Source: Myxococcaceae bacterium
GTDB lineage: Bacteria > Myxococcota > Myxococcia > Myxococcales > Myxococcaceae
Length of the DNA: 33,226 bases
NCBI GenBank assembly: GCA_003818285.1
Contig: RPRB01000034.1
Coordinates: 1-33,226, forward strand
Reading direction: 5' to 3'
Shown: positions 9,318 to 32,818 of the stretch, piece by piece
Layout: each line of letters starts with the position of its first letter
How positions within the stretch are numbered: position 1 is the stretch's first letter
The notes under the pieces: model-generated
What the model was told of the DNA's origin: nothing
The model's database searches: none
What the model saw: the letters and a program-made list of their open reading frames with translations, nothing else
Made by a program: the position numbers and the translations under genes

Positions 9318-10270
9318 CGAGGGCCTCCTCCCGTCCACGGCGACAGCGGACCGACCGGGCGCGCCTCGATCACCTCTGCGGAGGGGACGAGCGTGGCCAC
9401 CGGGACCGGCTCCGCCCGTGGCCTCGCGGGCGGCGGCGGCAGCTCCCTCATCCGATCGAGCACCAGCGCCGCCAGCGCATCGAGCCGGATCAGGGTCGCC
9501 AGCGCCTCGATGAGTGCCCCGAGCACCACGGCGACACCGGCGGCGGCGCCCGCGGCCCGGCCCGGCCCGGGAGCTCCCGCCTGGAGCACCTGCACGCCGG
9601 CGGCGAGGAAGCCGGCCGGCATCGCGGTCAGCAGCCAGAGCGCCACCACCGCTCCGGGGCGGGCGAGCAACGTCTCCAGGGACGTCCGAGCGGCCTCGCC
9701 CAGCTTGGCCGGCCTGACCACCGAGGCGACCAGCCCCAGCTCGAGCCACAGCGCCGCCGCCGGCCCGAGGAACAAGCCAAGGGTGAGCACCAGGGCCACC
9801 CCCGTGACGCCCAGGAACGAGACCAGCGGCCCACCGAGGAAGGTCGCGGCGCCGCTCGCCAGCAGCACGCCCCAGAACCAGAGCCCGAGCAGCTGATCGA
9901 CGATCACCGCGACGGCGGCCCAGGCAATGCCCCGGAGGCCCGCGCGAGCAGCGGAGATGGACGGGGGCGCCGCCGACGCGCGGAGCCGCGCGGCCCCGGA
10001 GTGCACCGCCACCGCGAGCACGACCGCGCGGACCAGCGAGGCGAGCACGAGCAGCGCCATGCCCGAGAGCAGCAGCGTCTCCTCGAGACGGAGCGCCGGG
10101 TCGCCGAGGAGGAGCACCCCCGGGAGCGTGCGCCACACCACCTGGGAGGCGGCGATCACCCCTGCCAGCACCAGCACGGCGAGGGCCGAGGACACGGCGG
10201 CGCGGGCTCCCAGCCGGAGCACCCACCCCACGGACGCAGCCGCGGGGGCTGCAGTCTCCTCGCCGGTCAT
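9314..10270 (-). CDS. Polytopic membrane protein in the Mla-type operon, function unknown
   Basis: 318 residues. The ATG overlaps the mlaD stop (ATGA at 10267-10270) and the stop overlaps the VOC start. About six or seven hydrophobic helices are visible, for example around residues 20-45, 52-75, 100-125, 132-165, 168-190, 205-225 and 235-265, and then a Pro-rich cytoplasm-like tail (ELPPPPARPRAEPVP). I recognise no named family; the layout resembles uncharacterised small-residue-rich integral membrane proteins. Tight coupling to mlaEFD suggests a membrane role linked to lipid transport, which is inference from position only. Confidence 0.82.
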   Translation of the reverse strand: MTGEETAAPAAASVGWVLRLGARAAVSSALAVLVLAGVIAASQVVWRTLPGVLLLGDPALRLEETLLLSGMALLVLASLVRAVVLAVAVHSGAARLRASAAPPSISAARAGLRGIAWAAVAVIVDQLLGLWFWGVLLASGAATFLGGPLVSFLGVTGVALVLTLGLFLGPAAALWLELGLVASVVRPAKLGEAARTSLETLLARPGAVVALWLLTAMPAGFLAAGVQVLQAGAPGPGRAAGAAAGVAVVLGALIEALATLIRLDALAALVLDRMRELPPPPARPRAEPVPVATLVPSAEVIEARPVGPLSPWTGGGPR

Positions 10271-11481
10271 CGCGCGGCGTCCGAGCGCGGGGCAGCGGAC
10301 TGCGGGGGCGGGGGCGGGGCCGGTGGCGGCTCGGAGACCGTGGTCAGCGGACGCCCGTCGGTGGGGTGGCCGGCCTGTTCCATGCCGCCCCGGTTGCTCA
10401 CGGTGATGCGCACCAGCTCCTGGAGGACCCGGTTGCGCTTCACGTTGCCCAGCACGGTCCGGAGGTCGTCGTAGACGCTGGGGTCCACCACCAGCGCCCC
10501 CAGGGTCCCCTCCCCGGCCCGGACCTTCCCGGTGATGACCCGCAGGTCCTCGGACATCGCGCCCAGGTTCTTGAAGAGGTCCCGGGCGTCGCCGTAGACG
10601 AGCTGGTGGATCGCGCCGTTCTCGGTGGTGCGGGCGTCGTGGAGAAGGGTGGCGATCTCCCCGGCCGCGTCCCCGAGCTGCCCCACCGCCTTGCCGGCCT
10701 TGGGGTCGTAGAGCAGCGCGTGGAGCGCACCCTCTCCCTTCCGGGCGTCCTCGAGGATGCGGGTCACCTGCTCGAGCGCGCGCTCGGCCTGTCCCGAGGC
10801 CCCGGCGAGCTTCTCCAGCAGCTGGCGGGTCTGGGCCGCGCCCTTCTGGTCGTAGATCAGGGCGTGGAGGGCCCCGTTCCCCTTCTCGATCCCCTGGAGG
10901 ATGCTCCGGACGCTGGCCAGCGAGGCGGTGAGGTCCCGCGACACCTCCGGCTGGCCGAAGGCATCGGTGAGCCTGCGGACGTTCTCGCTGGCTGCCAGCA
11001 GGTTGTCCATCAGCGCTCCGCCCGACTTGAGGAGCGAGGTCAGGTCCCCTGACGAGCCGCTGGGGATGGTGCCGTCGAGCGGGATGAGGTCCCCCTCGGC
11101 GGTGCCGAGCGAGATGTCGATCGCCTTGTCCCCGAGAACGCCGCGCCCGCCCACCCGGGCCACGCAGTCGGTGCGCACCCGCGCGGCAAAGGACTTGGAC
11201 ATCTCGATCACCACGTCGATCTTCTTGTCCCCCAGATCCGGGGAGAAGGAGATCGACACCACGCGGCCCACTTCGAGGCCACCGAGCCACACGGGCGAGT
11301 CGCGCTTGAGACCCTCCACGTTCTCGAAGAAGGCGTGGTAGCGGACCTGCCGATCGAACAGCCGGTTCTCCTTGCCGATGAGGAGGACCACGATCCCGAA
11401 GAGGACCAGGGCGGTGCCCACGAACAGGCCGGCCCGGACGACGAGCCGGCGTTCTCGCTGGGTGGCGGTCCCGGTGGTCAT
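10267..11481 (-). CDS. mlaD: MCE-domain substrate-binding protein of a lipid ABC transporter (MlaD-like)
   Basis: 404 residues. One N-terminal membrane helix (about 14-35) anchors it in the inner membrane with the rest periplasmic. The MCE domain follows at about 43-122 (GLKRDSPVWLGGLEVGRVVSI is the typical start). MlaD proteins form hexameric rings that carry phospholipid between the membranes. The protein is much longer than E. coli MlaD (about 180 residues). The extra region is predicted to be helical and carries four spaced repeats at about 201-212, 249-260, 288-299 and 323-334 (GALHALIYD, GALHALLYD, GAIHQLVYG, GTLGALVVD). It ends in a Pro-rich tail (PPPAPPPPPQ). Three bases separate it from mlaF, giving strong operon evidence. 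Confidence 0.92.
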   Translation of the reverse strand: MTTGTATQRERRLVVRAGLFVGTALVLFGIVVLLIGKENRLFDRQVRYHAFFENVEGLKRDSPVWLGGLEVGRVVSISFSPDLGDKKIDVVIEMSKSFAARVRTDCVARVGGRGVLGDKAIDISLGTAEGDLIPLDGTIPSGSSGDLTSLLKSGGALMDNLLAASENVRRLTDAFGQPEVSRDLTASLASVRSILQGIEKGNGALHALIYDQKGAAQTRQLLEKLAGASGQAERALEQVTRILEDARKGEGALHALLYDPKAGKAVGQLGDAAGEIATLLHDARTTENGAIHQLVYGDARDLFKNLGAMSEDLRVITGKVRAGEGTLGALVVDPSVYDDLRTVLGNVKRNRVLQELVRITVSNRGGMEQAGHPTDGRPLTTVSEPPPAPPPPPQSAAPRSDAAR

Positions 11482-11484
11482 CGG

Positions 11485-12270
11485 TCAGTCCACCCGGGCC
11501 TCGCCCTTGCGGGCGTCGAGAAAGGCCCGGACCTCCTTCACGGTGCTGGCCCGCATCTCGGCGACGGTGCCCACCTGGACGATGCGGTGGCTGGCGAGCA
11601 TGGCGATGCGGTCCGACACCGAGAACGCGCTCTGCATGTCGTGGGTGACGACGATCGAGGTGCAGCGGAGCTTGGCCCGCATGCCCTTGATGAGGTTGTC
11701 GATGATGCGCGTGCTGATCGGATCCAGCCCGGTGGTGGGCTCGTCCCAGAGGATGACGTGCGGCTCGGTGGCGATGGCACGGGCCAGCCCCACCCGCCGG
11801 CGCATGCCACCGGAGAGGTCCGATGGACGCATCGCCTCGATGCCCGGCAGGTTGACCAGGGAGAGCACCCGCGCCACGCGATGGGCTCGCTCCTCGTCCG
11901 ACATCTCCGGGAAGTGGACCCGGAGGGGGTACTCGATGTTCTCGCCCACCGAGATGCTGTCGAACAGCGCCGACGCCTGGAACACCATGGCCACCCGCCG
12001 GCGGATGGGGAGGAATTCCTTCTCCCCGAAACCGGTGAGATCCTGCCCGTCGAAGATGATGCGCCCGTCGTCGGGGTCCATCAGGCCGATGAGGCACTTC
12101 AGCAGCACGCTCTTCCCGGCGCCCGAGCCGCCGATGACGGCGAGGGTCTCGCCCCGGCGCACCTCGAGCGAGAGGTCGTCGAAGACGACCTTGGGGCCGA
12201 AGGCCTTGTGGAGGCCCTCGAAGCGGATCAGCGCCTCGGAGGAGGCGGGCGTGGCTGCGGGCGCGGTCAC
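11485..12270 (-). CDS. mlaF: ABC transporter ATPase of the Mla/MCE system
   Basis: 261 residues from a GTG whose GTGA overlaps the mlaE stop. The ATPase motifs are complete: Walker A GGSGAGKS (47-54), signature LSGGM (152-156), Walker B VILWDEP with D176 and E177, and the switch His in VVTHDM. Overall it matches the MlaF/Ttg2A family, which powers phospholipid movement between inner and outer membranes with MlaE and MlaD. No mlaB, mlaC or mlaA homologue is visible in the window, so these would have to be elsewhere or absent. The extended C-terminal tail is as in MlaF. Confidence 0.95.
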   Translation of the reverse strand: MTAPAATPASSEALIRFEGLHKAFGPKVVFDDLSLEVRRGETLAVIGGSGAGKSVLLKCLIGLMDPDDGRIIFDGQDLTGFGEKEFLPIRRRVAMVFQASALFDSISVGENIEYPLRVHFPEMSDEERAHRVARVLSLVNLPGIEAMRPSDLSGGMRRRVGLARAIATEPHVILWDEPTTGLDPISTRIIDNLIKGMRAKLRCTSIVVTHDMQSAFSVSDRIAMLASHRIVQVGTVAEMRASTVKEVRAFLDARKGEARVD

Positions 12271-13118
12271 GTGATGGTGAGGAGAAGCTTGGTCAGGAAG
12301 AAATCGGCGAGCAAGACGGCGACCGAGGACACCGCCACGGTCTGGGTGGTGGCTCGCCCTACCCCTTCCGTCCCGCCCTCGACGTGAAGGCCCTTGTAGC
12401 AGCCCACCACCGCGATGATCAGACCGAAGACCACGGACTTGCCCACCCCGGACAGGAAGTCGCTCTCGTCCACGGTGTCCAGGGCCGAGGTGAAGAACTG
12501 GGCGAACGAGATGTCGTACTCGAACTTGGTGACCCAGGCGCCGGCCAGGAACCCGGTCACGTCGGCGAGCACGGTGAGCATCGGCATCACCACCAGGCAG
12601 GCGTAGACCCGGGGCACGACCAGCCGCTTGATCGGATCCGCCCCCAGTGCGCGGACCGCGTCCACCTGCTCGGTGACCTTCATCGAGCCGAGCTCGGCGG
12701 CGATGCCGCTGCCGATCCGGCCCCCCACGGTGAGCGCGGTGAGCACCGGCGCGAGCTCCCGGAACAGGGTGAGGACCACCACCTTCCCCACCGTGTGCTG
12801 GACGCCGAAGCGGGCGAGGAAGAACCCGAACTGGATCGCGATGACCAGACCGGCGAACGCCGCGGTCAGCGTGCCGATGGAGACGGAGCGCGCCCCGAGC
12901 GACTCCACCTGGTACACGATGGCGCCGAAGCTGGACGGCGGCTGGACTCCCCGGGCGAGCGCACGGCCGGCGAGGACGAACATCCCGCCGAGCTGGGCCA
13001 TGCCGCGCCGGAACTTGGCCCGGAAGGGAATGAGGCTCTCCAGCTCCTGACCGACGATGGCGCCGAGCGACTCGCGGTCCGACTCCTCGGAGCTGTACTC
13101 GTCGTCCGGCGCAGTCAC
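12267..13118 (-). CDS. mlaE: MlaE-type ABC transporter permease
   Basis: 283 residues from a GTG start that overlaps the stop of the upstream lipoprotein gene (GTGA). It has the MlaE/Ttg2B family signature ELGSMKVTEQVDAVRALGADP around residues 145-165, followed by the PRVYA segment and five or so membrane helices (for example GTLTAAFAGLVIAIQFGFF, and the GVGKSVVFGLIIAVVGCY region). It is the inner-membrane channel subunit pairing with MlaF and the MlaD ring. The N-terminal 35 residues are acidic and serine-rich (EYSSEESDRES), an extension not needed by the family. Confidence 0.94.
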   Translation of the reverse strand: MTAPDDEYSSEESDRESLGAIVGQELESLIPFRAKFRRGMAQLGGMFVLAGRALARGVQPPSSFGAIVYQVESLGARSVSIGTLTAAFAGLVIAIQFGFFLARFGVQHTVGKVVVLTLFRELAPVLTALTVGGRIGSGIAAELGSMKVTEQVDAVRALGADPIKRLVVPRVYACLVVMPMLTVLADVTGFLAGAWVTKFEYDISFAQFFTSALDTVDESDFLSGVGKSVVFGLIIAVVGCYKGLHVEGGTEGVGRATTQTVAVSSVAVLLADFFLTKLLLTIT

Positions 13119-26560: not shown

Positions 26561-29317
26561 TCAGATCCGACTGAGGTTGTCCAACAGCTTGGCCCTGCGG
26601 GCCTCGAGCTCGATCACCCGGGCTCGATCCTTCTCGACCACGTCGGCCGGAGCCCGCGCAACGAAGCTCGGATTGTCCAGCTTTCGCCTCAAGGCTGCCA
26701 GATCAGACTCGACACGGGCGATCTCTTTCCGCAGACGCGCGCGTTCTTCGTCGAGATCCAACAGCCCCGCCAGCGGGACGTAGACTGAAACCCCCTGTCC
26801 CACCCACGACGCGCTCGAAGGCGGCGGAGCGCCGGTGGGCTGGAGCATCAGCTCCGACAGCCCCGCCAGCGGCTCCACGTAGGCGCGGTGGCGCTCCAGT
26901 GCCGCTCGGAGCGCCGCGTCGTCGGTCTGCACCACAGCCCGAATCCTCTGGAGTGGCGGCAGGTTGCTCTCGCCCCGGATGTTGCGAATTCCCTCGATGA
27001 CCGAGATGACCGGGGCCATCTCGGCTTCGGCGGCGGGGTCCTCGGCCCCGGCCTGCGGGTATGCGGCCAGCATCAGGAATGCATCTGGGGGAACTCCCGG
27101 AAGCCGGTGCCAGATCTCCTCGGTGATGAAGGGGATGAAGGGGTGCAGGAGCCGCAGCACCCGGTCCAGCACGTGGACGAGCACCGCGCGCGTGGTGTCA
27201 CCCCGCTCGGAGTCGGTGCCCTGGAGCGGGGGCTTGGCCAGCTCGATGTACCAGTCGCAGAACGCGTGCCAGGTGAACTGGTAGAGGGCCGAGGCCGCCT
27301 CGGCGAACTCGTACCGGCCCAGCGCGTCGTGCACCTCGCGGGTCACCCGCTCGGTGCGCGAGAGGATCCACCGGTCGGCGAGCGTGAGGGGGCGATCGCG
27401 CAGCGGGCGGTTCCCGGGATGGAAGTCGCCGACGTTGAGGAGCAGGAATCGCGAGGCGTTCCACAGCTTGTTGGTGAAGGCCTTGTAGCCGTTGACTCGC
27501 TCGAGCGAGAGCTTGATCTCCCGGCCCTGGGCAGCGAGCGCGGCGAGCGTGTAACGCAACGCGTCAGCACCGAAAGCCGGCAGTCCCTGGGGGAACTTGT
27601 TCTTCAGGCTGCGGGGGACGGCCTCCGCGTCGGTGCCGTGGATGACGTCGAGGGGATCGATGACGTTCCCCTTCACCTTCGACATCTTCTCGCCCTTCTC
27701 GTCGCGCACCATTGCGTGCAGGTACACGGCGCGGAAGGGCACGTCGCCCATGAAGTGGATGCCGAGCATCATCATCCGGGCCACCCAGAAGAAGAGGATG
27801 TCGTGCCCGGTCTCGAGGACCGAGGTCGGATAGAAGGTCTCGAGCTCCGGCGTCTGCTCGGGCCAGCCCAGCGTGCTGAAGGGCCACAGCCCCGAGCTGA
27901 ACCAGGTGTCCAGCACGTCGGGGTCCTGCCCCAGCGCCGAGCCCTTGCACGTGGGACACGACTCCGGCCGGGTGCGGGCGACGATGGGTGTCGCCTTCTC
28001 GAGGTCGAGCGCGCCGGAGCGAGTCCTGGGCGTGCACGCCTCGCAGTACCAGGCGGGGATCTGATGGCCCCACCACAGCTGCCGGCTCACGCACCAGTCC
28101 TGGATGTTCCGCATCCAGTGGAAGTACGTCGTGTTCCACGTGTCGGGGACGATGCGGGTCCTGCCCTGCTCCACCGCCTCGATGGCCGGCTTCGCGAGCG
28201 GCTCGATCTTCACGAACCACTGCGGTGAAAGCCGTGGCTCGACGATGGTCCCGCTCCGCTGGCACAGGCCGATGCTGAGCGTGTGCGGCTTCTCCGAGAC
28301 GAGAAGGCCACGCTCCTCCAGGTCTTCGATCACGCGCTCGCGGGCCTTGAACCGATCCAGCCCGGCGTAGGGTCCCGCGGCCTCGTTGGTCCGCGCCGCC
28401 TCGTCGAGGATGGAGATCATCGGAAGGCCGTGCCGGAGCCCGGTCTGGTAGTCGTTGAAGTCGTGCGCCGGGGTGACCTTCACCACGCCGGTGCCGAACT
28501 CCGGGTCCACTAGGGTGGCGTCGGCGATGACCGGGATCTCCCGCTCGAGCAGGGGGAGGATGACGGTCTTCCCGATGAGCTCGCGGTAGCGGGGGTCCTC
28601 CGGGTGGACCGCCACCGCCGTGTCGCCGAGCATCGTCTCCGGCCGGGTGGTGGCCACGGTCAGGAACCGGTCCTGCCCCTTCACCCGGTAGCGGATCTCC
28701 CAGATCGACCCCTCCCGCTCCTCGTGCTCCACCTCGAGGTCGCTGAGCGCGGTCTGGCAGTCCGGGCACCAGTTGATGAGGCGGTTGGCGCGGTAGAGGA
28801 GCCCCTCCTCGTACAGCCGCACGAACACCTCCACCACCGCGCGCGAGCTGCCCGGGTCCATGGTGAAGCGCTCGCGGCTCCAGTCCAGGCTCGCTCCCAG
28901 CGCCTCGTGCTGGACCTTGATGCGCGCGCCGTAGCGCTCCTTCCACTCCCAGACCCGGCGGACGAACTCCGCGCGGCCGAGGTCGTGGCGTGACTTGCCC
29001 TCCGTCTTCCGCAGCTCGCGCTCCACCACCATCTGGGTGGCGATGCCCGCGTGGTCCACGCCAGGCTGCCAGAGGGTGTTGAACCCGCGCATCCGGTGCC
29101 AGCGGATGAGGATGTCCTCCAGCGTGGCGGTGAGCGCGTGGCCGATGTGCAACGAGCCGGTGACGTTGGGAGGCGGCAGGATGATGCAGTACGGCGGCTT
29201 GCTCGACGTGGCCTCGGCCTTGAAGCAGCCCGCGTCTTCCCAGCGCCGGTACCAGCGCGCCTCGACTTCCGAAGGCTCGTAGGCCTTGGGAAGTCCTCCC
29301 TGGTTCTCGTCCGACAT
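26561..29317 (-). CDS. valS: Valyl-tRNA synthetase
   Basis: 918 residues, a class I aminoacyl-tRNA synthetase that charges tRNA-Val. The HIGH motif is at 57-60 (PPPNVTGSLHIGH). The KMSKS motif is K544-M545-S546-K547-V548 (EKMSKVKGN), with Val in the last position. The editing domain and an anticodon-binding region follow, then a C-terminal coiled coil (about 850-918, LDLDEERARLRKEIARVES), as in bacterial ValRS. The start is 18 bases after the RomR-like gene stop, and the stop is 12 bases before the histone-like gene, so an essential housekeeping gene sits inside a run with regulatory genes. Confidence 0.97.
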   Translation of the reverse strand: MSDENQGGLPKAYEPSEVEARWYRRWEDAGCFKAEATSSKPPYCIILPPPNVTGSLHIGHALTATLEDILIRWHRMRGFNTLWQPGVDHAGIATQMVVERELRKTEGKSRHDLGRAEFVRRVWEWKERYGARIKVQHEALGASLDWSRERFTMDPGSSRAVVEVFVRLYEEGLLYRANRLINWCPDCQTALSDLEVEHEEREGSIWEIRYRVKGQDRFLTVATTRPETMLGDTAVAVHPEDPRYRELIGKTVILPLLEREIPVIADATLVDPEFGTGVVKVTPAHDFNDYQTGLRHGLPMISILDEAARTNEAAGPYAGLDRFKARERVIEDLEERGLLVSEKPHTLSIGLCQRSGTIVEPRLSPQWFVKIEPLAKPAIEAVEQGRTRIVPDTWNTTYFHWMRNIQDWCVSRQLWWGHQIPAWYCEACTPRTRSGALDLEKATPIVARTRPESCPTCKGSALGQDPDVLDTWFSSGLWPFSTLGWPEQTPELETFYPTSVLETGHDILFFWVARMMMLGIHFMGDVPFRAVYLHAMVRDEKGEKMSKVKGNVIDPLDVIHGTDAEAVPRSLKNKFPQGLPAFGADALRYTLAALAAQGREIKLSLERVNGYKAFTNKLWNASRFLLLNVGDFHPGNRPLRDRPLTLADRWILSRTERVTREVHDALGRYEFAEAASALYQFTWHAFCDWYIELAKPPLQGTDSERGDTTRAVLVHVLDRVLRLLHPFIPFITEEIWHRLPGVPPDAFLMLAAYPQAGAEDPAAEAEMAPVISVIEGIRNIRGESNLPPLQRIRAVVQTDDAALRAALERHRAYVEPLAGLSELMLQPTGAPPPSSASWVGQGVSVYVPLAGLLDLDEERARLRKEIARVESDLAALRRKLDNPSFVARAPADVVEKDRARVIELEARRAKLLDNLSRI

Positions 29318-29335: not shown

Positions 29336-30523
29336 TTAGCCTTTTCCGTCCCGCTCGCGCATCGTCCGCTCGGCGATTTCGCGCACGATCGTCTCGGCGA
29401 GCTGCGGGACGACTTCCCAGGCAATCTTCTCGATGACCTCGCGGGAGGCCTTCCCCAGGGCTTCCCGGAGCTGGGCCTCGCCGCCGTCGGCCGCGGCCGC
29501 GGGCGAATCCGAGCCGAGGTCGAGCGACATCTCCTCCGCCGCGGCCGGAGGGGCGATCTGCGGCTCGACCTGGTAGCCCCGGACGGGGGTGCTCGCCGGG
29601 GCCGACAGGCCGAACGGATCGCGGCCGCGGGCCGCCACCGGGGCCGCGGGGGTGGACGGCACGGGAGGCAAGGGGGCGGCACCCGGCGCCCGGGGGAACC
29701 CTCCGGGGGTCATCGGGGCGGCGGGCCGGGCGAAGCCGGACTGGGTGACGAGCGGCATTCCCGGTCGAGGAGCGCCGGGAACCGTGCCCCCGCCGAGCGG
29801 CTGCGGCGGTCGGGGAAGCCCGGCCGGCGCGGAGCCGGGCGGACGGGCCGTGGGAACGCCCGACTGGGTGATGGGACGGGCCATCGGCTGCGCCGCCGGG
29901 CGCGGCACCCCCGCCATCGGCGTGGCCGCCGGGCCGGCCGGACGTGGGATCCCAGCCGGTCCAGGCATGGGCTGCGGGATGCCGGCGGTCGGAGCCGGAC
30001 GGGGCGCCCCGACCGCAGAGAAGGCGCCGGTCGCGGCCGGGCGCGGAGCCCCCGAGGCCATCGGCTGGCTCGGCCGGGGAACCGCGGGCTGCGAGGTCGC
30101 CGGAGGAGTCGCGGTGGCCACCGGGCGCCGTGCCGGCATCATCGGCTGGCCGGCGGGGAGGCCGAGCAACGCGCGCACCCGGTCGAGGAACGCCTGGCTC
30201 TCGAAGGGCTTGGTGATGTGCGCGTCCGCCCGGGCGGCGCGGGCACGCGCCTCGTCGAAGGGCTCGAAGTTTCCGGCGAGGAGCAGCACTGGGGTGGAGG
30301 CGGTGGCCGGGTCCGACTTCAGCGTCTCGCACACCTCGTAGCCGCTCCGGCCCGGCATCAGCACGTCGGCGATGACGAGGTCCGGGCGCATCTCTCGCGC
30401 GCGGGCAATGGCGTCGATGCCGTTGTCCACCGCGGTGATCTGAAAATCCTCGAGCGCGAGCACCATCCCGATGACCTTGCGGATGGTGAGCGAGTCATCG
30501 GCGACGAGCAGGGTCTTCGGCAT
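29336..30523 (-). CDS. romR: RomR-like response regulator (REC, Pro/Ala-rich linker, conserved C-terminal helix)
   Basis: 395 residues. The receiver domain (1-120) has the acid pair D9-D10, phosphoacceptor D53 (IADVLMPGRSGYEVCETLKSD) and K105 (HITKPF). The usual Thr/Ser switch position is Ala83 (LLLAGNF). A roughly 220-residue Pro/Ala/Gly-rich linker follows, then a conserved amphipathic segment (EVIEKIAWEVVPQLAETIVREIAERT) near the C-terminus. This layout, the length (M. xanthus RomR is about 420) and the MPK-LLVADDSLTIRKVIGM opening match my recollection of RomR, a polarity regulator that localises MglA for gliding. Similar C-terminal helices occur in other deltaproteobacterial regulators, so the name is probable, not proven. 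One base separates it from the CheW-like gene. Confidence 0.78.
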   Translation of the reverse strand: MPKTLLVADDSLTIRKVIGMVLALEDFQITAVDNGIDAIARAREMRPDLVIADVLMPGRSGYEVCETLKSDPATASTPVLLLAGNFEPFDEARARAARADAHITKPFESQAFLDRVRALLGLPAGQPMMPARRPVATATPPATSQPAVPRPSQPMASGAPRPAATGAFSAVGAPRPAPTAGIPQPMPGPAGIPRPAGPAATPMAGVPRPAAQPMARPITQSGVPTARPPGSAPAGLPRPPQPLGGGTVPGAPRPGMPLVTQSGFARPAAPMTPGGFPRAPGAAPLPPVPSTPAAPVAARGRDPFGLSAPASTPVRGYQVEPQIAPPAAAEEMSLDLGSDSPAAAADGGEAQLREALGKASREVIEKIAWEVVPQLAETIVREIAERTMRERDGKG

Positions 30524-30524
30524 G

Positions 30525-31391
30525 TCAGCTCGCGATATCTGATGGGCCGCGCCTCGGCCCTGTCAAGTTCGAGGCTCCCACCAGGCGCGTGACATCCGGT
30601 GCGAGGACCACGTGCCCGTCCGCCGTCCACCAGCGGCCGGGCTCGCCCGCAGATGCGAGCCGATGCTCGATGCCCAGGACGCGCGAGGCGCAGACCGCGA
30701 CCTGGATCCCGGCGAGCTCGAGGAGCACCACCTGCGACTCCACCGCCAGCGGCTCGCCGAGGAAGGCGGGCAGCCCGTACACCGGCCACAGCGCCCCGGC
30801 GTGCGCCAGGAGCCCGGCGATGACCCCGCCCGGCACGGGGAAGGGGCAGAAGGCGGCCAGCACCGGGGAGATCTGCAGCACGTGGGCCAGCGGGACCCCG
30901 AAGAGCGTGCTCCCCGACTCGAAGAGCAGCGCCGGACCCTGCGGTGAATCGAGCCAGGTGACGATCCGCGGCGCCGGAGTGGGCAGCATGCAGGTCTGCC
31001 CCAGCGCCTCGGCACGCAGCTCGAGGTACAGGCGACCCTCGTGCTGGAGCGCGCCCCTGACCAGCGTGCCGATCCGCTGCGCCAGGTCCCGGGTCAGCTC
31101 GAAGTGCGGCGCACCGGCGACGTCCGCCACTTCCGCACCTTCACGCACGCGCACCGCCAGCGTGGGACTGGTGTCGAGGAGCACCGCCAGACCGGGGCGC
31201 CGCTCGGGCGCACCGCCCATGAGCGTGGAGAGGTCCTCCAGGGGGAAGACGCCGCGCACGCTGGCCCGCTCGGAGTCCGGATCGGGCGGCGTGACCTCGA
31301 GGACCCGCGAGGCCTCCAGCGCGTACCGGGCGGGGCCGGCCTCGAAGAGGAGCGCGAGCCTGCGACCTCCATCATGGGTGTGCGCAGCCAT
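30525..31391 (-). CDS. Tandem CheW-like domain protein
   Basis: 288 residues from the ATG at 31391 (AGGA upstream); a longer in-frame start is less likely. Two CheW-like domains are visible. The first (about 8-128) has RLALLFEAGPARYALEASRVLEV and GVFPLEDLSTLMGG. The second (about 150-280) has PALLFESGSTLFGVPLAHVLQI, AGALWPVYGLPAFLG and VVLLELAGIQVAVCASRVLGIEH. CheW domains couple receptors to CheA kinases. Both copies look diverged. It lacks a receiver domain, so it is not CheV. Its stop lies one base before the romR-like start, so the pair is almost certainly co-transcribed. The role is inferred to be in a chemosensory or polarity pathway. Confidence 0.75.
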   Translation of the reverse strand: MAAHTHDGGRRLALLFEAGPARYALEASRVLEVTPPDPDSERASVRGVFPLEDLSTLMGGAPERRPGLAVLLDTSPTLAVRVREGAEVADVAGAPHFELTRDLAQRIGTLVRGALQHEGRLYLELRAEALGQTCMLPTPAPRIVTWLDSPQGPALLFESGSTLFGVPLAHVLQISPVLAAFCPFPVPGGVIAGLLAHAGALWPVYGLPAFLGEPLAVESQVVLLELAGIQVAVCASRVLGIEHRLASAGEPGRWWTADGHVVLAPDVTRLVGASNLTGPRRGPSDIAS

Positions 31392-31471
31392 GGGCGATTC
31401 CTGATCCTCGAAGGCTATCCCGAGCCGGCGCGATCCTGTCATGCTCGCATCGCAGGCACGGCGCGAAGCGG
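31392..31471. promoter_or_regulatory. Shared intergenic control region of the CheW-romR operon and the diguanylate cyclase gene
   Basis: 80 bases between divergent starts, so both promoters must lie here or inside the genes. I see no convincing -35/-10 pair. Recorded as a probable bidirectional promoter from gene arrangement only. Confidence 0.4.
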
Positions 31472-32818
31472 ATGGCGACCATCCTTCTGGTGGACGACGA
31501 GAAGGTCGCCCGTACGGTGTACGGCGACTACCTGACCGCCGCGGGTCATACGGTGACCTGCGTCGGCTCGGTGGCCGAGGCGCGCGCCGCGCTGGCCCTG
31601 CACCCGGTGGACCTGGTGGTCACCGACCTCATCCTCCCCACCGGCGACGGGATGGAGGTCCTGCACCACACTCGCGAGCGGTACCCCGGCGTGGAGGTGG
31701 TGGTCATCACCGCCCTGGACAAGGTCGACCCGGCGGTGCGCGCCATCAAGAGCGGCGCGGCGGAGTACCTGGTCAAGCCGGTGAAACCCGAGGCGCTGAA
31801 CCACGCCGTCCACCGGGCGCTGATGACCCGTGCGCTGCTGGCGGAGAACGCGGCGCTGAAGCGGCACCTCTCGCTCGTCGAGGCGGGGCAGCGCCTGCTC
31901 ACCACCCTGGACCGCGCGCGGCTCGGGCAGACGGCGAGCGCAGCGTTCCGGCAGCTCTCCGGCTCGGAGGGAGTGCTGCTCTGGTCGCGGGGCGCCGATA
32001 CCGTCCGGCTCGAGGCCTCCGACGGGGTCTCGGCGGAGGTGCTGCGCCATCTCGTGGTCCGCTACGACGCCGAGCTGCCCGACCTTCCCGCCCGTCCTTT
32101 CGACGCCCCCTGGCCGGAGGGACCGGGACGGGTGCTGGGGTTCCCGGTGGGCGACGCCGGCCGCCACCGCGGGTGGGCCTTGCTGGTGACGCTCGATGCG
32201 CTGACTGACCCCCTGCGGGAGGCGGCCGAGTACCTGGCGCGGCACCTGTCCCTGGCCTGGGAGCACCTGGAGCGTTTCGCCCGGGTCGAGGACCTCGCCT
32301 ACCTGGACGACCTCACCCGGCTGTACAACGCCCGCTACCTCGACGAGGCGCTCGAGCGCGAGCTGCACGGGAAGGGGCCCTTCAGCCTCCTGTTCCTCGA
32401 CCTCGACCACTTCAAGAGTGTCAACGACACCCACGGCCACCTGGTGGGGAGCAAGCTCCTGGTGGAGGCGGCCCGCGTGGTGAAGTCCTGCACCCGCGAC
32501 CAGGACGTGGTCGCGCGCTGGGGCGGCGACGAGTACGTGGTGCTCCTCCGCGAGACCGACAGCGGTGGGGCCCTCAAGGTGGCAGAGCGCATCCGGCGGA
32601 CGGTCGAGTCGCACTCCTTCCTCGCTCGCGAGGGCTACGGGCTCGGAGTGACGGTGTGCATCGGGGTGGCCAGCCATCCCGAGCACGGCGTGGACCGCCG
32701 GACACTGCTCGACCTGGCGGACCGGGCGATGTACCGGGGGAAGCGCACCTCGCGGAACGTGGTGTACGTCGCCGCGGCGTCCGGCGAGGAGGTCGTCAAG
32801 CGGAGCGGCGCGGCCTGA
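31472..32818 (+). CDS. Response-regulator diguanylate cyclase (REC-GAF-GGDEF)
   Basis: 448 residues. The receiver domain (1-120) is complete: D8 and D9, phosphoacceptor D52 (VVTDLILP), T80 and K102 (LVKPVKP). Residues about 135-270 look like a GAF domain. The GGDEF domain (about 280-435) carries GGDEY at 351-355 and the product-inhibition site RDQD at 342-345, exactly five residues before it, so it should make cyclic di-GMP and be feedback-inhibited. DLDHFKSVNDTHGH is typical. Phosphorylation by an unlinked histidine kinase is likely. It is divergent from the CheW-RomR pair, suggesting shared control of polarity or motility. Confidence 0.94.
   Translation: MATILLVDDEKVARTVYGDYLTAAGHTVTCVGSVAEARAALALHPVDLVVTDLILPTGDGMEVLHHTRERYPGVEVVVITALDKVDPAVRAIKSGAAEYLVKPVKPEALNHAVHRALMTRALLAENAALKRHLSLVEAGQRLLTTLDRARLGQTASAAFRQLSGSEGVLLWSRGADTVRLEASDGVSAEVLRHLVVRYDAELPDLPARPFDAPWPEGPGRVLGFPVGDAGRHRGWALLVTLDALTDPLREAAEYLARHLSLAWEHLERFARVEDLAYLDDLTRLYNARYLDEALERELHGKGPFSLLFLDLDHFKSVNDTHGHLVGSKLLVEAARVVKSCTRDQDVVARWGGDEYVVLLRETDSGGALKVAERIRRTVESHSFLAREGYGLGVTVCIGVASHPEHGVDRRTLLDLADRAMYRGKRTSRNVVYVAAASGEEVVKRSGAA

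Follow-up and report, generated by a model that had tools for sequence, protein, structure and literature searches.

A tandem CheW-domain gene and a divergent diguanylate cyclase gene upstream of romR in a Myxococcaceae genome and its relatives

In the Wsp system, a chemosensory kinase activates WspR, a protein with receiver (REC) and GGDEF domains whose gene belongs to a che operon of its own. The route from chemosensory output to the MglA/RomR polarity module of myxobacteria is an acknowledged open question, and the way in which Frz output proteins act on this module has been stated to be unknown (PMC10329633). RomR of M. xanthus (MXAN_4461) combines a REC domain, a Pro-rich linker and RomR-C, a C-terminal part defined by an invariant Trp and an invariant Pro (PMC3441718) which binds MglC (PMC12719032), and mutants of its Asp53 show reversal phenotypes (PMC3441718). 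MXAN_4462 was catalogued in 2014 as the orphan CheWa, with two CheW domains and a gene outside all che operons, in a listing that gives neither a function nor a romR context (PMC3945109, Table 2); no paper linking CheWa to romR was found in the literature searched. FrzB, a single-domain protein encoded in the frz operon, lacks the CheA-contact segment, and this absence stops it binding its CheA (PMC6952110). Finally, single mutants in all but three (dmxA, sgmT and tmoK) of the 24 c-di-GMP genes of M. xanthus moved normally (PMC4877007), and an insertion in MXAN_4463 was not EPS-negative (PMC4671073).

The window analysed here is a stretch of 33,226 nt from Myxococcaceae bacterium (assembly GCA_003818285.1, contig RPRB01000034.1), in which the locus occupies positions 29,336-32,818. 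All the features placed by a preliminary description of this DNA were found at their positions, and the parts of the locus are as follows:

26561-29317, minus strand: valS, valyl-tRNA synthetase, the old neighbour of romR (Pfam)
29336-30523, minus strand: romR orthologue, 395 aa (RomR clade in the REC tree, RomR-C motif, valS synteny)
29339-29488, minus strand: RomR-C helix, aa 346-395, EVIEKIAWEVVPQLAETI, with Trp and Pro (alignment)
29489-30160, minus strand: Pro/Ala-rich linker of RomR, aa 122-345 (sequence; without a Pfam match)
30161-30523, minus strand: RomR receiver domain, aa 1-121 (Pfam PF00072, 2.4e-20; Asp53, Ala83, Lys in TKPF)
30524: single base between the CheW2 stop and the romR start (sequence)
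30525-31391, minus strand: CheW2, tandem CheW protein, 288 aa (51% identity to the positional M. xanthus gene, Pfam, AlphaFold2, Foldseek)
30567-30950, minus strand: C-terminal CheW domain of CheW2, CheA-P5-contact segment kept (domain alignment)
30990-31370, minus strand: N-terminal CheW domain of CheW2, without about 13 residues of the CheA-P5-contact segment (domain alignment)
31392-31471: divergent promoter region between CheW2 and the diguanylate cyclase gene (sequence; short divergent spacing at the CheW2 loci read)
31472-32818, plus strand: REC-(GAF)-GGDEF diguanylate cyclase, 448 aa, MXAN_4463 orthologue (Pfam; 60% identity; GGDEY and RxxD I-site)

The regulator, first described as RomR-like, is a genuine RomR: the REC tree, the Trp- and Pro-bearing RomR-C motif and the synteny with valS are in agreement. 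In a tree of 49 RECs it fell inside a clade that gathers all RomR (support 97/96), with M. xanthus RomR in a Myxococcaceae set supported at 98/95. Its RomR-C is 76% identical to that of M. xanthus over 42 aa and keeps both invariant residues; the two REC domains also share 76% identity, whereas the linkers differ. The domain order, the downstream valS and the presence of mglBA in the genome are common to both organisms, MglA of the window genome (C116:9599-10183) being 90% identical to its M. xanthus counterpart and preceded directly by an MglB frame. The receiver holds a candidate phospho-acceptor, Asp53, within IADV. Position 83, the Thr/Ser switch site, is Ala in myxobacteria including M. 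xanthus, and Val, Gly, Thr or Cys in others. The proposal that Ala83 makes signalling atypical is thus ruled out by orthologue comparison: it is the normal RomR residue, also present in the M. xanthus protein whose Asp53 mutants have reversal phenotypes.

Comparison of gene order shows that the locus is made of an older romR-valS pair and of a younger two-gene unit upstream, CheW2 and the divergent REC-(GAF)-GGDEF gene. valS adjoins romR over a range that runs from the Myxococcota as far as Acidobacteria and Aminicenantes. RomR predates CheW2 and has a much wider distribution, RomR-C having been detected in 37 of 40 relatives and CheW2 in 23. The survey of romR orthologues confirmed that the CheW-like neighbour is conserved: the order GGDEF gene, CheW2, romR is kept in Myxococcaceae, M. 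xanthus among them (MXAN_4463, MXAN_4462 and MXAN_4461), and in some of their sister families, and since it is kept in dozens of genomes it is far beyond chance. In nearly all genomes that carry CheW2 the next gene downstream is romR, and the GGDEF gene stands divergent beside CheW2 in every one with a readable flank, the exception being a short contig that ends first (L071). The one-base spacing between CheW2 and romR is exact in the window, but it is peculiar to this genome and is ruled out as a conserved feature; a space of about 33-135 bp separates the two genes in relatives (116 bp in M. xanthus) and may hold a separate promoter for romR.

Where the cluster breaks, it tends to do so on the romR side. 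The CheW2-GGDEF pair has moved off romR as a unit in two genomes (G042 and G043) and is separated from it by about 2 kb in a third; CheW2 is therefore tied more tightly to the GGDEF gene than to romR. From one genome (G021, locus L009) CheW2 alone has been lost while the GGDEF gene and RomR persist, so the GGDEF enzyme can do without CheW2. Mirror-tree comparisons on a dereplicated set, made with no unrelated control gene, gave correlations of CheW2 with GGDEF distances beyond valS (r 0.34-0.64) and with RomR-REC distances given valS (partial r 0.57-0.62, p 0.002-0.011), so that CheW2 tracked these two neighbours to a similar degree. The residual between RomR-REC and GGDEF was about zero, which may merely reflect a short, noisy REC. 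These correlations of CheW2 with both neighbours lend weak support to their association.

CheW2 shares with CheWa its place in the locus, 51% identity, two CheW domains and a position outside any che operon; no CheA, MCP or CheR/B genes were seen beside it in the window or in relatives. It is 17 aa longer than CheWa, with a C-terminal extension past the usual LDLxRMFS end. A longer ORF of 305 aa begins at 31442, and the inner start at 31391 is favoured because of the relatives and of an AGGA upstream of it. Pfam PF01584 recognises two CheW stretches (1.5e-11 for the whole protein, above cut-off; best stretch at 171-260 of the 305-aa ORF), while NCBIfam and a phmmer search against the PDB gave no match for CheW2. 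An AlphaFold2 model shows two CheW-like barrels (pLDDT 85.7, pTM 0.83), for which significant Foldseek matches (E<=0.001) were solely CheW and CheA-P5 structures. Neither half has an intact CheA-P5-contact segment. The N-domain, whose best hhalign partner is FrzB, lacks about 13 aa, most of the segment that is absent from FrzB, and joins FrzB as the second example of such a loss in a CheW domain; FrzB differs in having no second CheW domain and in its place in a frz operon. The C-domain has a segment of the right length, but in the sequences aligned it lacks the Arg of NLRG, and its C-terminal portion is shortened, so binding to receptor and kinase is doubtful for this half too. Omega values of 0.04-0.30 in seven species pairs show that CheW2 evolves under purifying selection. 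For the profile search, CheW2 sequences were trimmed of the stretches that read through the GGDEF gene in antisense. The preliminary description suggested that the two-CheW protein could be an undescribed adaptor; the word undescribed can be kept for its function and romR context, the orthologue being already listed as CheWa.

In the divergent gene, Pfam finds GGDEF (1.3e-40) and REC (1.9e-22) domains as first described; the GAF domain is merely likely because its match (16.1 bits) falls below the Pfam cut-off (28.6 bits). With the sequence RDQD-x5-GGDEY, which comprises I-site and active site, the enzyme is a predicted diguanylate cyclase, GGDEY being present in 46 of 47 orthologues and the RxxD I-site in all 47, and its receiver has the canonical Asp, Thr and Lys. 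MXAN_4463 has the same REC-GGDEF composition, 60% identity and divergent orientation, in a frame of 458 aa, the published length. By exclusion its mutant is motile, since it is among the 21 of 24 genes without a motility defect (PMC4877007), which speaks against the suggested c-di-GMP control of polarity by this gene. A match of MXAN_4463 to the DifD specificity residues (PMC4671073) was not used, as in our own reading 1 of 5 agrees.

The Frz system, to which the locus had been linked, cannot be the partner here because in the window genome mglBA is present and a Frz cluster is absent. Its only CheW-domain loci (C59, C83 and C236) comprise CheW2 itself along with one Dif-like and one CheA-CheW-CheW cluster; a CheW-domain scan and local tblastn found no frzA-frzB-frzCD-frzE operon, and the CheAs are closer to DifE-type and Che8-type clusters than to FrzE. 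A Frz adaptor is thus ruled out for this organism. Across genomes, CheW2 occurs solely where there are no fewer than five further CheW-domain matches, the median being 16 in genomes with CheW2 and 5 in those without, a relation confounded with genome size and kinship, and it is missing from those with the fewest chemosensory genes, where RomR is kept.

The reading that we tentatively prefer makes CheW2 a divergent scaffold, rather than a standard MCP-CheA coupler, which would couple a non-Frz array to the neighbouring diguanylate cyclase in a unit upstream of romR. Its array would most likely be the Che8-like or the Dif-like one, the sole two in the window genome. By analogy with Wsp, CheW2 would direct the output of the kinase to the adjacent REC-GGDEF enzyme, at its canonical receiver, although this locus, unlike that of WspR, has no CheA or MCP nearby. 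Being upstream of romR, the unit could give a c-di-GMP branch made in proportion to RomR; direct contact between CheW2 and RomR would be possible and is not required. The kinase, the partner and the output are our proposal, set on the observed gene order and CheW2 domain changes. We counted in its favour the movement of the pair as a unit, the CheW-rich genomes, the kept GGDEY, I-site and receiver, the FrzB-like N-domain, omega, the CheW2-GGDEF distance tracking, and MglA and MglB without Frz. Counted against it were the similar tracking of RomR-REC, G021, the MXAN_4463 mutant phenotypes and the confounding of CheW number; gene neighbourhood, moreover, does not equal interaction.

A shared promoter region or vertical inheritance may instead hold together three genes of separate pathways. 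This agrees with the persistence of romR-valS across phyla without an obvious functional tie, with pieces lost or moved independently, and with the normal motility of the 21 c-di-GMP mutants; given the joint movement of CheW2 and the GGDEF gene in two genomes, and the absence of CheW2 where chemosensory genes are fewest and RomR is kept, we consider it somewhat unlikely. A direct adaptor between a non-Frz array and RomR, drawing either the receiver of RomR towards the kinase or the array towards the pole and thereby helping to trigger polarity switching, would explain the position of CheW2 directly upstream of romR and its partial correlation with RomR-REC, and would address the stated gap in Frz output. 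It seems unlikely, however, in view of the older and wider distribution of RomR, the two genomes where CheW2 left romR with the GGDEF gene, the lack of Frz and the gap in which romR may have its own promoter. A general array modulator like FrzB, one that takes up receptor or ring positions but does not activate CheA, its proximity to romR being secondary, would fit the complementary losses of the two halves, the orphan state of the M. xanthus gene and the link with CheW-domain number, but is very improbable, as it leaves the conserved GGDEF linkage unexplained and the C-domain lacks the NLRG Arg.

Beyond our preferred scaffold reading, CheWa/CheW2 might be a new kind of adaptor, its halves with complementary losses docking a non-Frz array onto both the RomR receiver and the diguanylate cyclase at the pole; we regard this as distinctly unlikely. 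M. xanthus nevertheless carries this conserved, apparently unstudied CheW-type gene directly upstream of romR, and since the same gene set is present there, a link between sensing and polarity can be tested directly in the model organism, where a deletion strain of the divergent c-di-GMP gene (SA5600) already exists. If the docking adaptor were true, it would supply a physical connection, missing so far, that joins chemosensing and c-di-GMP to the front-rear polarity of myxobacteria.

Coordinates and Pfam matches bear out the preliminary description of three genes, coding for a RomR-like polarity regulator, a tandem-CheW protein (CheW2) and a diguanylate cyclase. Together with the neighbouring valS they are:

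26561-29317, valS, which comes after romR
29336-30523, minus strand, romR, with a receiver (REC) domain
30525-31391, minus strand, CheW2 gene, with two CheW stretches
31472-32818, plus strand, REC-GGDEF gene, with REC and GGDEF domains; its GAF match is under the Pfam cut-off

The REC-GGDEF gene is divergent from the CheW2-romR pair, whose one-base spacing is unique to the window (gaps elsewhere are ~33-135 bp). Three minus-strand genes farther off, read from sequence only as an MCE-like gene (10267-11481), an ABC ATPase gene (11485-12270) and a third beside them (12267-13118), resemble an Mla-type lipid transporter set.

The identity of the regulator as RomR is secure. A tree built from 49 receiver domains, among them the nearest available paralogues from the window's own genome, puts its receiver inside the RomR clade (support 97/96), in a 98/95-supported set shared with M. 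xanthus RomR; several paralogue branches are long, and no paralogue lies inside the clade. The C-terminal helix carries the family Trp and Pro in EVIEKIAWEVVP, the motif that defines RomR-C (PMC3441718), and corresponds to the MglC-binding part (PMC12719032). The same genome encodes MglA (90% identity to M. xanthus MglA), with MglB directly upstream. RomR-C is present in 37 of 40 relatives; the other three are fragmented assemblies, and in two (G004, G012) romR crosses a contig end. Ala83, first taken as a possible sign of atypical signalling, is a RomR family trait: all aligned myxobacterial RomRs have Ala (as in M. xanthus), Gly or Cys, the residue is Val in Acidobacteria and Geobacter and Thr in one Holophagales, and M. 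xanthus D53 mutants change reversals despite Ala83 (PMC3441718).

A scan of named genomes yielded 61 loci, whose neighbours were found by tblastn with the window proteins. The divergent GGDEF gene followed by CheW2, romR and valS recurs in Myxococcus, Corallococcus, Pyxidicoccus, Hyalangium, Archangium and several MAG lineages. More diverged versions occur in three other families (f2, f3, f5) of the same order. Conservation of the CheW2-romR neighbourhood is secure. The romR-valS adjacency extends to Geobacter, other Desulfuromonadia, Acidobacteria and Aminicenantes. This adjacency is far older, and outside the CheW2 lineages a different gene stands upstream of romR, in some myxobacterial-like MAGs frequently groEL; CheW2 and the GGDEF gene thus joined the locus later. 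The linkage of romR to valS (L043-L068, Myxococcota through Aminicenantes) is very old and unexplained. In lineages without CheW2, groEL lies upstream of romR in L047, L049, L051, L052 and L056, directly in most and one gene farther off in L049; in L009 it is located behind the GGDEF gene. One Myxococcus-like romR locus (L015, BNCN01000007.1) is titled Comamonas sp. KCTC 72670, an assembly that is likely mislabelled or mixed.

The cluster is broken in a few relatives:

L009:3154-5863, GGDEF gene and romR 166 bp apart, CheW2 lost (genome G021, equated by identical RomR-C coordinates)
L137:2862-5006 and L138:2159-4275, CheW2 and the GGDEF gene relocated jointly, far from romR and still in divergent orientation (L038 and L040 genomes)
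L093:566-2362, ORF of ~598 aa within the ~2 kb between CheW2 and romR (genome G005)

Full-length CheW2 was not found elsewhere in the L009 genome, nor in that of L042. By these patterns of loss and relocation, the tie of CheW2 to romR is looser than its tie to the GGDEF gene.

The AlphaFold2 model of CheW2 consists of two CheW barrels (pLDDT 85.7, pTM 0.83), and Foldseek matched it only to CheW and CheA-P5 structures. Its halves were aligned with FrzA, FrzB, other M. xanthus CheWs and E. coli CheW. The N-domain lacks ~13 residues of the LPxxPxFIxGVxNxRG segment, the same segment from which FrzB lacks 20; the C-domain retains the segment length, lacks the conserved Arg and is shortened close to its end. 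In hhalign, with weak scores and shallow profiles, the N-domain is nearer to FrzB (6e-4, versus 0.024 for FrzA) and the C-domain to FrzA (1e-3, versus 0.2 for FrzB). The absent segment leaves FrzB unable to bind FrzE (PMC6952110). Purifying selection acts on the CheW2 gene (omega 0.04-0.30).

The suggested partnership with Frz does not hold, because the genome, judged by its CheW-domain loci and CheA comparison, has no frz operon; CheW2 thus cannot be Frz-specific. Besides CheW2, CheW domains occur only in loci C236 and C83. The C236 CheA shares 55% identity with the CheA of an M. xanthus CheA-CheW-CheW cluster, whose gene content matches Che8 (PMC3945109 Table 2), and 34% with FrzE; the C83 cluster (MCP-CheW-CheY-CheA-CheC) is Dif-like. 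Other CheW-domain matches number 5-27 in those of the 40 relatives that carry CheW2 and 0-14 in the rest (Mann-Whitney p 2e-5; p 0.02 within 4-8 Mb), uncorrected for kinship.

GGDEY is found in 46 of 47 GGDEF orthologues, identified by motif, and RxxD in all 47; the window protein has a canonical receiver. In valS-controlled, dereplicated distances, CheW2 correlates with RomR-REC (r ~0.6) and with the GGDEF protein (r 0.3-0.6), and these two correlate less with each other; with valS as sole control gene, co-evolution is suggestive at best. Our best guess, a tentative one, is that CheW2 and the GGDEF protein would form one signalling unit that takes its input from a non-Frz array, as the relocated pairs and the CheW-domain counts may indicate. 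Simple neighbourhood of the three genes, compatible with the old romR-valS linkage and to be weighed against the joint relocation of CheW2 and the GGDEF gene, is rather unlikely. A direct RomR adaptor, to which the conserved adjacency and the RomR-REC correlation would point and the separations from romR would not, is a still more doubtful reading. That CheW2 is a general array modulator, for which the changes in its two domains and the CheW-domain counts might speak and its linkage to the GGDEF gene would not, seems improbable.

In M. xanthus AM003 (L021) the GGDEF gene adjoins a ferritin-like protein gene, and no EncC-like gene adjoins it in the window:

L021:4249-4641, next after the GGDEF gene, encapsulin cargo EncC

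The protein end, LTVGSLRR, fits EncC, MXAN_4464 (PMC12693112), and the 458-aa GGDEF frame matches the published length of MXAN_4463; the M. xanthus run is therefore MXAN_4464-4463-4462-4461. Of the 24 M. xanthus c-di-GMP genes, 21, MXAN_4463 among them by exclusion, can be mutated singly with motility unaffected (PMC4877007), and an MXAN_4463 insertion does not abolish EPS (PMC4671073). MXAN_4462 is catalogued as 'CheWa', of 271 aa with two CheW domains and no che operon (PMC3945109); in the open-access literature we found no study of it, nor any tie to romR. M. xanthus offers a clean and unexploited test of CheW2 function.
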